DNA from: an uncultured Desulfocapsa sp.
GTDB lineage: Bacteria; Desulfobacterota; Desulfobulbia; Desulfobulbales; Desulfocapsaceae
Assembly: GCA_947311435.1 (NCBI GenBank)
Contig: CAMZKT010000004.1
Span: forward strand, 1-44,566
Reading direction: 5' to 3'
Length of the DNA stretch: 44,566 nt
Below, in pieces: positions 24,551 through 29,961 of this stretch. The translations under genes and the position numbers were made by a program. The notes under the pieces were generated by a model. The model saw only the letters and a list, made by a program, of their open reading frames with translations, ran no database searches and was not told the DNA's origin. Numbering within the stretch: the first letter of the stretch is position 1; each line of letters starts with the position of its first letter.

Positions 24551-25122
24551 GTGAAAGAATATATCTACGTAGTGTTTTCCGGAAGATACATTGGTCGGCT
24601 AGAGTCGAAGCAAGAGAAGCAGCAAACAGACTCCTCGCGCAGTTGAAGAACCATACAGCAATGCAAGTTTGTCAGATATGTGGCAATGATATCGATTTTA
24701 GACTTCATCATTGTCCCCATTGTGGAAACGAACAGGAAAAAGATGGACAGAATCAATTCAAGGCAGGGAGAAGAGAACTTCATCAGAAAACCATAAATCT
24801 TGAGAAAGGACTCCCAACTGTTCAACAGGCTCTGATAAAATTTGAGCAGGAATTAAAGACCGCACGTCTCGAACGATACCGTTTACTCACCTTGATTCAC
24901 GGCTACGGTTCCACGGGAAAGGGTGGTGTAATTCGGCTTGAATGTCGAAAAACCCTCGATTATTTCCAAAATAAAGGTAAAATAGTACAAGTGATCTATG
25001 GCGAAGATTTCCATCACCGGCACGGTGTGGTAAAACATCTCTTGAGTAGATTTCCAATTCTATCCCGACATCCACATTTGAATAAGAAAAATAAAGGAAT
25101 TACAATCATACTGTTGTTTTGA
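24551..25122 (+). CDS. Zinc-ribbon + Smr (MutS2 C-terminal-like) domain protein; probably frameshifted near its 5' end (intact frame from ~24601; supplied ORF starts at TTG 24643)
   Basis: CQICGNDIDFRLHHCPHCGNE zinc ribbon; LEKGLPTVQQALIKFEQELKTARLERYRLLTLIHGYGSTGKGGVIRLECRKTLDYF Smr core. AGGAGG ribosome site precedes GTG 24551 in another frame. Confidence 0.6.
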
Positions 25123-26133: not shown

Positions 26134-26616
26134 TAAAAAAAAAATCAGGAAAAGTGTACATTATTAATGATGTGCGTGATACTGTGCTGAGTACCGTGTG
26201 GACTCTTAACGTACTTTTTGAACAGAATCTGTACGGTACTTATTACGTATCGTCAAAAATCTCTCGTTTGTCAGGCAGGTAGGGATTTCACCTTTGTTTT
26301 CATGAGATTGTGGACGGTGTGTTGCTACTGTTGATGCTTTTTGCCGTTCTGATATCTCCTCAGTGTGTTACCGTTTAAATCCAAGGAATAATAAGCCTTC
26401 AGTCGCCGCTGGACCAGCAAACCTTTCAAGGCAGTGTATTGGCGAAGCCGGATCGGTTATGCTGGTGTCCTCGGTAATATTGAAGGAAGGCCAAGTACTT
26501 TTATAAGAGATTTATAAAAACTTTAGCAACTCTCTTTACATATTTTGTCTGTTTTGTATTGTAGAGAGAATTGTTTGGGGAACTTAACGAAATTACAGAC
26601 CTTACTTGGAGTTTTT

Positions 26617-27414
26617 ATGAAAATCAGTCTCAGTTTGGATCAGGAATTATGTACTCAATGTTATTCTTGTATCTCAGAATGTCCCTTTGATTTATTAAGT
26701 GAAGATAAAGAGGGGTTTCCTCAGTTACGGAAAGCTGCGGTAAAGAGATGTATGCGGTGTGGACACTGTATGGCTGTGTGTGTCGCCGATGCGTTGGATA
26801 TCTCAATTTCCCCACTTGAGAGCAGCCCACCTGTGGATAGATCGCTGTTGCCAAGCCCGGAATCGCTTAAACATTTTTTAGAGGGTAGACGTTCTATTCG
26901 AACGTATCGAAAAAAATCGGCGGATCGTGCTACTTTGGAAAAGCTTTTAGATGTCAGTCGTTACGCCCCCAGTGCCCACAACAAACAGCCTGTCCACTGG
27001 ATAATTGTACAGGATTCGGAAGAAGTGAAACAGATTGCTGGGCTGGTAGTGGAATATATGAAGGAGCTGAAAATCTTTCCTGGTTTACTGCGTGCGTGGG
27101 ATCAGGGAGTTGATAAGGTTCTTCGTGGGGCTCCCCACCTTGTTGTTACTCACTGCGACCCTGGATACAGCGAGCACCCGATGGAAGATTGTACACTGGC
27201 CACTGCATACTTTGATCTTGCGGCCAACAGCTATGGAATGGGGAGTTGCTGGGCCGGGTTCCTTGTTCAGGCTGCGGCTAAATATCAACCTTTGATTGAC
27301 GCCTTTAACCTTCCAGAGGGGCATAAGGTGTATACTGCACTCATGCTTGGCTACCCTAAATATCGATACCGTCATATTCCGCAAAGGGATGAACCAAAGG
27401 TGACCTGGAAATAG
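26617..27414 (+). CDS. Nitroreductase family protein with N-terminal 2x[4Fe-4S] ferredoxin domain
   Basis: CTQCYSCISECPFDLL...CMRCGHCMAVCVADALD; nitroreductase domain RRSIRTYRKKSADRATLEKLLDVSRYAPSAHNKQPVHWIIV. Confidence 0.93.
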   Translation: MKISLSLDQELCTQCYSCISECPFDLLSEDKEGFPQLRKAAVKRCMRCGHCMAVCVADALDISISPLESSPPVDRSLLPSPESLKHFLEGRRSIRTYRKKSADRATLEKLLDVSRYAPSAHNKQPVHWIIVQDSEEVKQIAGLVVEYMKELKIFPGLLRAWDQGVDKVLRGAPHLVVTHCDPGYSEHPMEDCTLATAYFDLAANSYGMGSCWAGFLVQAAAKYQPLIDAFNLPEGHKVYTALMLGYPKYRYRHIPQRDEPKVTWK

Positions 27415-27455: not shown

Positions 27456-28115
27456 TCACAAGCAGTCGGATGACTGCAGAGTTGCCTGTAATCCTTCCAG
27501 CAATACAAAACGGCCAAGAGAGATCACCGGACAGGGAAGGGAACCGACAAAAAGAGGGTTGCCGCAAAGCCCGCCTGAAAGGTATAATTCCCTTGGCCGT
27601 TTAGCAAAGTCGTATGCGTTCAGAGCAATTCCCTTTACAAATTTCGCCACTGCTTCAACTTCGTTTTCTCCATTTACCACTGCGTCAAAAATGTTGCTCA
27701 TCCCCAGTACTCCGCAGGTGATAGAGAAGGCACTTTTCGGGATTGGCATCTTTGAAAAATCAAGGTTATAATATTTCTCTAGCAACTCAATGGTAAAACC
27801 CATTGAAGCTCCACATTCGGCATTCCACCCCATATCTTTGATCTTCCCGTCATTGTAGGTGACATATTTGATATCCCGGCTGCCGCAATCGAGAAGGGTG
27901 AATGTCTTTTTCCTGATGAGTGTTAGTCCGCCCCGTGCCAGTGCAGTAAGTTCGTTTACATACTGTTTGGCGTACCGTTTACCGTTATGGCCTGTGGCAA
28001 TATCGACTTTCATAGTTTTTCGGTCGATTGTATTGGTGGCCATTAGTCGTGGAGCATCGACGGAATGAGTGTCGAGAAGTTTACAGTAGGTCGTTCCAAA
28101 GTCGGCAAGCAGCAT
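27456..28115 (-). CDS. BadF/BadG/BcrA/BcrD-type (2-hydroxyacyl-CoA dehydratase activator-like) ASKHA ATPase, compact
   Basis: LLADFGTTYCK (phosphate-1), LLDCGSRDIKYV (GGQDxK-like), WNAECGASMGF and SITCGVLGMSNIF at the positions of the HgdC cluster cysteines, LYLSGGLCGNPLFV (adenosine motif). Confidence 0.78.
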   Translation of the reverse strand: MLLADFGTTYCKLLDTHSVDAPRLMATNTIDRKTMKVDIATGHNGKRYAKQYVNELTALARGGLTLIRKKTFTLLDCGSRDIKYVTYNDGKIKDMGWNAECGASMGFTIELLEKYYNLDFSKMPIPKSAFSITCGVLGMSNIFDAVVNGENEVEAVAKFVKGIALNAYDFAKRPRELYLSGGLCGNPLFVGSLPCPVISLGRFVLLEGLQATLQSSDCL

Positions 28116-28129
28116 GATTTTACTCCCGC

Positions 28130-28879
28130 TTATTTTTCAGAGAGTTCAAGAAAAGCCTGAATTTTTGCCTTGGCACTGGAACCGGCAGTTACGTCGCAAT
28201 CGAGATACAGGGCATAGGGGTGCCTGCTGGCCAGGTGACTGGCAAGTGCAGTTTTGGCACAAAACGATTGGGCAAAGAATACAGTTGGTATATCGGGGTT
28301 GTAGTGCATTTCAAGGTCGAGATTGTCAGGTGTTTTATTCTCCATGCACCGCGTCCATCCGTAGATGTGAGTAGTGTCGGGAAAGAACTCCAGCAGTGAG
28401 AAATCCCTTGGCGGTACACCCCAGAACCCGGCCGTCGGGGTACATGGAGCAATATTGTCAAGGTATGGATGTGGATTTTGAACAGTGGCTGTAATCGCAG
28501 CCATCTTGTCTGTAAGCTTCATCCGGGCTTTACAAAGAGGAATCCCAAAGCCGGTGGAATCATTGTTCCTCGTCCGTAAAATACGGCAATTCGGTAGTAT
28601 ATCATCTAGAACCGTTGCTGTATGTACTGCACAGTCGCATTTTCCGGAACCTGTATCTATATAAATCAGCTCCGGTTGAATGGCCAGGCTGTTTGCAATA
28701 ACGGTTCGCAGTATGCCACAGTAGACCCGTGGAAGAAGCGGGGAGGCTGTTTCAATGTCAATTCTGCCCTGCGGTTCATCAAGGTCAAATATTTCATGGT
28801 CGGGGCTTGCAATGTGCTTTATTATTGAGAGGGGAGGAACACCAACAATTCCAATCCTGTGTTTCTTTTGGGTAACCAT
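28130..28879 (-). CDS. Uncharacterised Cys-containing protein co-transcribed with the activase
   Basis: 249-aa ORF in operon arrangement (1-nt overlap with the lptG stop, 14-nt gap to the activase); eight cysteines including KCDCAVH, APCTPTAGFWGVP, SFCAKT, LDCDV; no family recognised. Confidence 0.75.
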   Translation of the reverse strand: MVTQKKHRIGIVGVPPLSIIKHIASPDHEIFDLDEPQGRIDIETASPLLPRVYCGILRTVIANSLAIQPELIYIDTGSGKCDCAVHTATVLDDILPNCRILRTRNNDSTGFGIPLCKARMKLTDKMAAITATVQNPHPYLDNIAPCTPTAGFWGVPPRDFSLLEFFPDTTHIYGWTRCMENKTPDNLDLEMHYNPDIPTVFFAQSFCAKTALASHLASRHPYALYLDCDVTAGSSAKAKIQAFLELSEK

Positions 28880-29961
28880 CAGCCCCCCTGTTTACGTAGA
28901 AGAAAAAAGCCGCTACATCCAAATATGATGTGAATCAGGGAGGCCGCAAGAATGGGAGATACGTAGCCCACTTTGGCAAGAGATTGCAAGGCTCCCCAGA
29001 TGCCCCAGGCAAAAAAGGCCATACCGCAGCTCACAGGGATGGCGACGGAGAGATCCTTTCCCCATTTCTTGTAGGTTATCAGGAGTACAGGTAACCCAAG
29101 GAGTAGCAGGGGAATCCCGAGCAGAGTATAGGAAATCCTGCCGTAAAAGTTGGTTTGGGCAACGACAGTTTCGGCCTCTGTCTCCTGCTTGTACATTGCT
29201 TGAAACATCTCCGTCAAAGGGAGCTCCGCCGCCTGATATTCAGGGATGAAAAATGACTCTGGCTCTTCGGGGAAAGGGAATGTCTGGCTGGCAAAAATGC
29301 TGGTGAGATATTTGTCCCTGTTGATATGGGTTTGGACTTGACCATCGCTCAAGTGCCATCCTGTCTCATTCCACTCTGCTTTTTTTGCAGAAACAAGGGT
29401 CATCAGTTTGTGCTTTTCCCCCCAGCTGGAGTAGGAGAAATCAAGAAATATATTTTTCTTGGGCCATGGCCTGGCAAAGGAGTAAAAACCTTCTTTCCCC
29501 TTATAGTAATAGCGGCCATTCCTGTATATCCCCAATGGAATTTTTCCTCTTACATCCTCGTACCAGATGGTGTTGGTTGCTGCTATCGTTCGTGGGAGGA
29601 TCCACTGGGCCATGGCCAGAAAAAGCATGGTAAAAAGAAGTGCTCCGATGAGAATTGGATTTATAATGGTTCGCATGTGGATTCCGCTGGCCATCATAGC
29701 TGTGAGTTCATTATTATGACTGAGCACCCCCAGGCTGATAACTCCTGCAAGCAGGATAAGAATTGGCCCGAGCATATCTATAATGAAGGGAGTGCTAAGA
29801 ATAAAAAACTGAAGAATCAGTCCGAATGACTTGTCTGCATTGAGAAACTTGTCAATTTTTTCAAAGAAATCTATGAGGATATAAAGAGAAAGAAAGCCTA
29901 CCGTCACAATGAAAAAGGTGCGGACAAATTGAGAGAGTATATATCGATTTAGAAGTGTCAC
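28879..29961 (-). CDS. lptG: LptF/LptG-family LPS export permease (LptG-like)
   Basis: MTLLNRYILSQFVRTFFIVTVGFLSLYILIDFFEKIDKFL...NELTAMMASGIHMRTI...; C-terminal TM bundle. Confidence 0.88.
   Translation of the reverse strand: MTLLNRYILSQFVRTFFIVTVGFLSLYILIDFFEKIDKFLNADKSFGLILQFFILSTPFIIDMLGPILILLAGVISLGVLSHNNELTAMMASGIHMRTIINPILIGALLFTMLFLAMAQWILPRTIAATNTIWYEDVRGKIPLGIYRNGRYYYKGKEGFYSFARPWPKKNIFLDFSYSSWGEKHKLMTLVSAKKAEWNETGWHLSDGQVQTHINRDKYLTSIFASQTFPFPEEPESFFIPEYQAAELPLTEMFQAMYKQETEAETVVAQTNFYGRISYTLLGIPLLLLGLPVLLITYKKWGKDLSVAIPVSCGMAFFAWGIWGALQSLAKVGYVSPILAASLIHIIFGCSGFFLLRKQGG

Follow-up and report, generated by a model that had tools for sequence, protein, structure and literature searches.

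A shortened relative of the HgdB/HadC/BzdN/DCCP fold class and a divergent HgdC-type activase as a probable minimal two-component ATP-driven reductase of Desulfobulbales

A pair of adjacent genes from an uncultured Desulfocapsa sp. probably encodes a minimal two-component ATP-driven reductase, composed of a short HgdC-type activase (ACT) and a 249-aa protein (P249) that would be a shortened and CoA-independent member of the HgdB/HadC/BzdN/DCCP fold class. The genes are located in the analysed stretch of 44,566 nt (the window), which represents contig C4 of a 2.45-Mb draft genome that is 89% complete. To our knowledge, ATP-driven low-potential electron transfer is found in few systems, namely nitrogenase, benzoyl-CoA reductase, 2-hydroxyacyl-CoA dehydratases, DCCP, and a few cofactor activators. 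ACT would be a small ATP-using electron pump, and P249 is very probably its partner protein, a cut-down relative of the enzymes by which electrons are forced onto molecules of very low reactivity. The genes of the locus are:

28130..28879, minus strand: P249 open reading frame, 249 aa, ATG start
27456..28115, minus strand: ACT open reading frame, 219 aa, ATG start
28879..29961, minus strand: LptF/LptG-family permease, upstream of P249
30484-32115, plus strand: RACo/AcsV-like corrinoid-activator protein

Both open reading frames named in a preliminary description of this DNA proved to be real and, as described there, are separated by 14 nt, with P249 upstream of ACT. Conservation analysis showed that P249 and ACT are same-strand neighbours in all 109 loci that could be measured. 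In 97 of these 109 pairs, the spacing falls between −20 and +60 nt. Overlaps, a signature of translational coupling, occur in 62 of the 109; the pairing is far beyond chance. Among 194 genomes of the order, ACT is present in 161 and P249 in 159, and comparison of the two lists showed that all 159 P249-positive genomes also carry ACT, the two ACT-only genomes (G502 and G537) both being incomplete MAGs. A scan of GTDB genomes with a degenerate pattern, which reaches close relatives only, yielded 137 P249 relatives. The 80 that were kept all belong to assemblies of Desulfobulbales type or to proteobacterial MAGs with less precise names, and wherever a locus is long enough to reveal gene order, ACT essentially always comes after P249. 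A search of plasmids gave zero matches.

Two distant families of the same phylum, f20 and f42, also have the pair (about 40–50% identity), and P249 occurs in all analysed genomes of the respective orders (8/8 and 5/5). Judged from N-terminal sequence only, lysyl-tRNA-synthetase-like and ABC-transporter-like genes flank the pair in f20, and a hydrolase-like gene lies downstream of it in f42. Since the pair is kept in these families with different neighbours, the unit of conservation is the two genes alone, and no further conserved operon member travels with them across the three lineages. The preliminary description had treated the two genes as a unit, and their co-occurrence across the order and in two other families agrees with this. 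The LptF/LptG permease gene precedes the pair in most loci of Desulfobulbales, is absent from this position in the two other families, and is not thought to be part of the pair's function; a link with LptG or other flanking genes was rejected, as it is not kept outside Desulfobulbales. In the window, a single LptF/LptG-family gene adjoins P249 and a CrcB-like gene lies directly upstream of the permease, while the genes upstream of lptG vary among other Desulfobulbales loci.

Based on its sequence, ACT is a short, divergent HgdC-type (BcrAD) ASKHA activase; 4eht and 1hux each exceed it by about 50 residues. It matches Pfam BcrAD_BadFG (E=1.3e-4) and TIGR00241 (E=4.9e-9), in both cases with a significant E-value and a score below the curated cut-off; TIGR00241 is matched by 41/41 ACT homologues. 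The best PDB match is the 2-hydroxyisocaproyl-CoA dehydratase activator (4eht, 3.7e-7), and further matches are HgdC (1hux, 4.8e-7) and the DCCP reductase (7yyl_E, 9.6e-5). ACT also weakly matches bzdQ. In the alignments with 4eht and 1hux, the ACT motif NAEC101GASMG is placed under NDKCAAGTG and ITC134GVLGM under STCTVFAES, and thus C101 and C134 match the cluster ligands of the solved activases, which confirms the earlier by-eye alignment of two ACT cysteines with cluster ligands. Both residues are conserved in 116/116 homologues. The codons concerned, together with that of a third cysteine, are:

27813..27815, minus strand: ACT Cys101 codon, candidate bridging-cluster ligand by HgdC/HadI alignment
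27714..27716, minus strand: ACT Cys134 codon, candidate bridging-cluster ligand by HgdC/HadI alignment
27885-27887: ACT Cys77 codon, in the second phosphate motif

The ASKHA phosphate and adenosine motifs (DFGT..K, DCGSRD, and SGGLC.N) are present in ACT and conserved in the alignment, the second phosphate motif reading D-C-G-S-R-D where HgdC has D-I-G-G-Q-D. Three further cysteines, C77, C184, and C195, are nearly invariant. Cys184 is located in the adenosine motif, and Cys77 (in DCGSRD) and Cys184 could together be a family signature of ACT. No other BcrAD proteins were found in the same genome (89% complete). Methanogenesis marker 15 (TIGR03286) is, like ACT, an activase-like protein, and a link to the methanogenesis markers had been suggested previously. 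This link was rejected: TIGR03286 does not match the ACT of the window and matches 2 of the 41 homologues weakly (best E about 0.015), so that marker 15 would be no more than distantly related to ACT.

Structure prediction identifies P249 as a putative compact two-domain relative of the HgdB/HadC/BzdN/DCCP fold class, which probably accepts the electron and serves as the catalytic or the relay protein. An AlphaFold2 model built with 46 homologues (pLDDT 88, pTM 0.84) was compared by Foldseek to 350,542 PDB chains. The top nine matches are all HAD/benzoyl-CoA reductase subunits, and at E≤0.001 the model matches 2-hydroxyisocaproyl-CoA dehydratase and class I benzoyl-CoA reductase chains exclusively (best E 5.6e-7; TMq 0.54–0.64). 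For a second model, that of a P249 homologue from family f42 (40–41% identical to the P249 of the window, pLDDT 83), all eight matches at E≤0.001 are HadC, DCCP, MbdN, and BzdN-type chains (TM 0.46–0.53, with high rmsd over long alignments), and the nitrogenase MoFe protein is next after these eight. Generic Rossmann-like proteins rank far lower, with probabilities of about 0.5 or less and TM values of 0.2–0.3.

The models and Foldseek matches predict two four-stranded alpha/beta domains. In the AlphaFold2 model, the eight strands comprise residues 7–12, 28–32, 71–75, and 99–103 of one domain and residues 150–153, 170–173, 199–204, and 223–228 of the other. The modelled protein has neither an N-terminal helical region nor an intermediate helical domain, and helix 122–134 and a linker alone join both domains.

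At the sequence level, P249 of the window gave no Pfam match at E≤10 and no NCBIfam match, and P249 does not reach the gathering score of Pfam PF06050. HGD-D is the commonest Pfam match among P249 members (13/46, weak, best 9.8e-5), and a genome search with the HGD-D profile picked up the P249 of G543 at 9e-4. When P249 and HGD-D profiles were compared domain by domain, the scores of like domains were reached by 6/200 (N-N) and 1/200 (C-C) column shuffles, whereas those of crossed domains were reached by 93/200 and 118/200 shuffles. Full-length hhalign of P249 with DCCP-like HGD-D proteins was not significant, a local HMM of DCCP-like proteins searched against P249 and background gave a best E of 0.22, inseparable from the background, and a PDB sequence search with the P249 profile gave zero matches. 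P249, which the preliminary description had left unassigned, matched no unrelated family.

P249 contains nine cysteines (C54, 81, 83, 98, 116, 146, 178, 207, and 228) instead of the eight counted previously, and four of them, C54, C81, C178, and C207, are invariant in 113/113 sequences. C116 and C146 are mostly conserved and have been lost independently in different lineages. The invariant positions are:

28718..28720, minus strand: P249 Cys54 codon, first canonical HGD-D cluster cysteine (LPRNTC) by profile alignments
28637..28639, minus strand: P249 Cys81 codon, second canonical cluster cysteine (TCDG) by profile alignments
28346..28348, minus strand: P249 Cys178 codon, GWTRC motif, putatively the ESC cysteine of DCCP-like proteins, from topology by eye
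28259..28261, minus strand: P249 Cys207 codon, QSFCAK, putatively the third canonical cluster cysteine (FCQPY), from topology and motif

P249 would thus carry three canonical cluster cysteines, C54 and C81 as placed by profile and C207 as suggested by topology. C178 is positioned after the second strand of the C-terminal domain and C207 after the third, and the C-terminal AKIQAFLEL would correspond by topology to LKTRVEAFVEM; C178 is a possible fourth ligand. A double cubane has six cysteine ligands (PMC11971306). P249 has cysteines at four of the six DCCP double-cubane positions, fewer than the [8Fe-9S] cluster requires, with two equivalent positions not occupied by cysteine. We rejected a six-cysteine double-cubane site in P249 as unproven, given the independent variation of C83, C116, C146, and C228. 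Ordinary HGD-D proteins carried by many Desulfobulbales (L145-L174) show a DCCP-like six-cysteine pattern with the motifs LPRNTC, LCP, TCDG, SGCP, ESC, and FCQPY.

Among the known systems, DCCP:DCCP-R (7yyl, 6eno) resembles the pair in having one HGD-D-fold protein and one HgdC-type activase with no second dehydratase subunit, and its chains are matched by both P249 (f42 homologue model) and ACT. DCCP reduces small molecules in vitro. Unlike DCCP (about 420 aa), P249 with its 249 aa has no N-terminal helical part and no intermediate domain. In the HadBC/HadI system (3o3m, 4eht), the P249 fold is closest to HadC (3o3m_B/D) and ACT is closest to HadI, and HadBC and P249 have the three canonical cluster cysteines in common. 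However, HAD works on CoA esters as a heterodimer, whereas P249 has neither a second subunit gene nor an intermediate domain. P249 also matches MbdN/BzdN-type chains of the class I benzoyl-CoA reductases BzdNO/BzdPQ and MbdON/MbdPQ. These are four-gene systems with CoA substrates, in contrast to P249, which has no CoA-channel domain; in BzdNO, this channel is formed by the intermediate domain (PMC11971306). TudS, the 4-thiouridine-5'-monophosphate desulfidase, is like P249 a shortened member of the fold family and carries a [4Fe-5S] cluster (PMC11971306), but it consists of one domain and has no activase, while P249 has two domains and an activase. The diversity of BCR, HAD, and DCCP has been attributed to sub-cluster loss, and the biological function of DCCP has been described as unknown (PMC11971306). 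No described short HGD-D/activase pair was found in the open-access literature, to which the search was confined.

By analogy with HadI, DCCP-R, and BzdPQ, we propose that one [4Fe-4S] cluster would sit between the two subunits of an ACT homodimer, bound by C101 and C134 from each, and that the dimer would take an electron from ferredoxin or a similar donor. ATP binding and hydrolysis by ACT would then drive a very-low-potential electron into an Fe-S cluster of P249, with which ACT presumably interacts physically. This cluster would be held by C54, C81, and C207, with C178 as the likely fourth ligand or an active-site thiol, and P249 would either reduce a small molecule itself or hand on the electron. 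P249 is probably inactive on CoA esters because the intermediate helical domain with the CoA channel is absent from the model, which would make the pair CoA-independent. The fold of activase partners, the cluster cysteines, and the gene pairing support the earlier proposal of a two-gene reductive-activation module with P249 as the target. As a CoA-channel-free member of 249 aa that occurs with a single activase across an order, P249/ACT would be the smallest two-component version seen here; it would be a tractable model for the mechanism of ATP-driven electron transfer and would signal an unrecognised reductive step in sulfur-cycling bacteria. More tentatively, and with somewhat more doubt than confidence, the pair could represent an unrecognised class of CoA-independent ATP-driven reductases, being the smallest activatable member of the nitrogenase-like/double-cubane fold, with a four-cysteine or rearranged Fe-S site, and carrying out an important low-potential reduction conserved in Desulfobulbales and two further lineages.

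Several other explanations were weighed, and for ALTERNATIVES we tested an accessory role to HGD-D proteins, the acetyl-CoA pathway, RACo, and methanogenesis marker 15. As a sub-version of the two-component reductase, P249 might serve as a BzdN/HadC-like relay that passes electrons from ACT to a third, unlinked metalloprotein. The best matches of the f42 homologue model are the electron-handling HadC, BzdN-type, and DCCP chains and not catalytic subunits, the fourth invariant cysteine C178 could close an open iron site, and the pair has no additional conserved operon partner. We nevertheless regard a relay as rather unlikely: the P249 model from the window also matches catalytic-type subunits, the related DCCP is self-sufficient, and the pair has no constant third companion gene in the three lineages. 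P249 could in principle be unrelated to the HGD-D class, with the Foldseek matches reflecting a double Rossmann-like architecture of a generic kind, as P249 resembles HGD-D weakly in sequence and the alignments require long gaps. This is improbable, since generic Rossmann-like proteins score far below the family members (TM 0.2–0.3), the two models and the Pfam HGD-D matches agree, and the activase partner of P249 comes from the very family that fits this fold. Slightly less probable still is a highly divergent CoA-ester dehydratase or reductase with a second subunit encoded elsewhere. The P249 fold and the activase family would fit such an enzyme, and ordinary HGD-D proteins occur in 106 of the 194 genomes of the order; however, P249 (249 aa, 8 strands) is devoid of the CoA-channel intermediate domain, and the pair has one subunit gene in place of two different HGD-D subunits. 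Moreover, at least 14 P249-positive genomes carry no ordinary HGD-D protein, namely the genome of the window and at least 13 others, including the single-contig, 99%-complete G106, and therefore the pair is not accessory to an ordinary HGD-D protein. The dehydratase subunits that had been noted as missing near the pair were not found anywhere in the 89%-complete genome.

The fold class and the three-cysteine cluster site shared with TudS, the TudS precedent itself (PMC11971306), and the sulfur metabolism of the hosts would be compatible with a TudS-like sulfur-transferring function of P249. We consider this very improbable, because the ATP-using activase is inseparable from P249, whereas TudS has not been described as needing one, and because P249 keeps both domains and TudS one. 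Least probable of all is that the pair and the nearby RACo/AcsV-like protein jointly and reductively activate the corrinoid protein in the acetyl-CoA pathway. In most Desulfobulbales loci, the RACo-like gene lies upstream in divergent orientation, and its product appears to have no N-terminal ferredoxin domain, since the NCBIfam match begins at model position 127 and omits that part. Yet this explanation is largely refuted by distribution: in genus g19 and in the two other families the pair has no RACo nearby, the genomes of g19 keep the pair without acetyl-CoA synthase (CdhC), and in genus g10 CdhC occurs but the pair does not. The acetyl-CoA pathway link was rejected on these disagreeing distributions of CdhC and the pair, and the RACo link because adjacency is confined to part of the order and the genome of the window encodes another RACo, on contig C24, whose open frame is longer (674 aa). 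A minimal, probably CoA-independent reductase remains our preferred explanation for P249 and ACT.

Further observations concern the surroundings of the pair. Neighbouring homologues of the RACo/AcsV-like protein are of similar size. A two-[4Fe-4S] ferredoxin domain fused to a nitroreductase-family domain is encoded at 26545-27414 on the plus strand, and this fusion gene is convergent with the activase gene in genus-level relatives only. The gene at 24643-25122 on the plus strand encodes a 159-aa protein that weakly matches zinc-ribbon and Smr domains, and it is conserved between the RelA/SpoT-like and FKBP-type genes.
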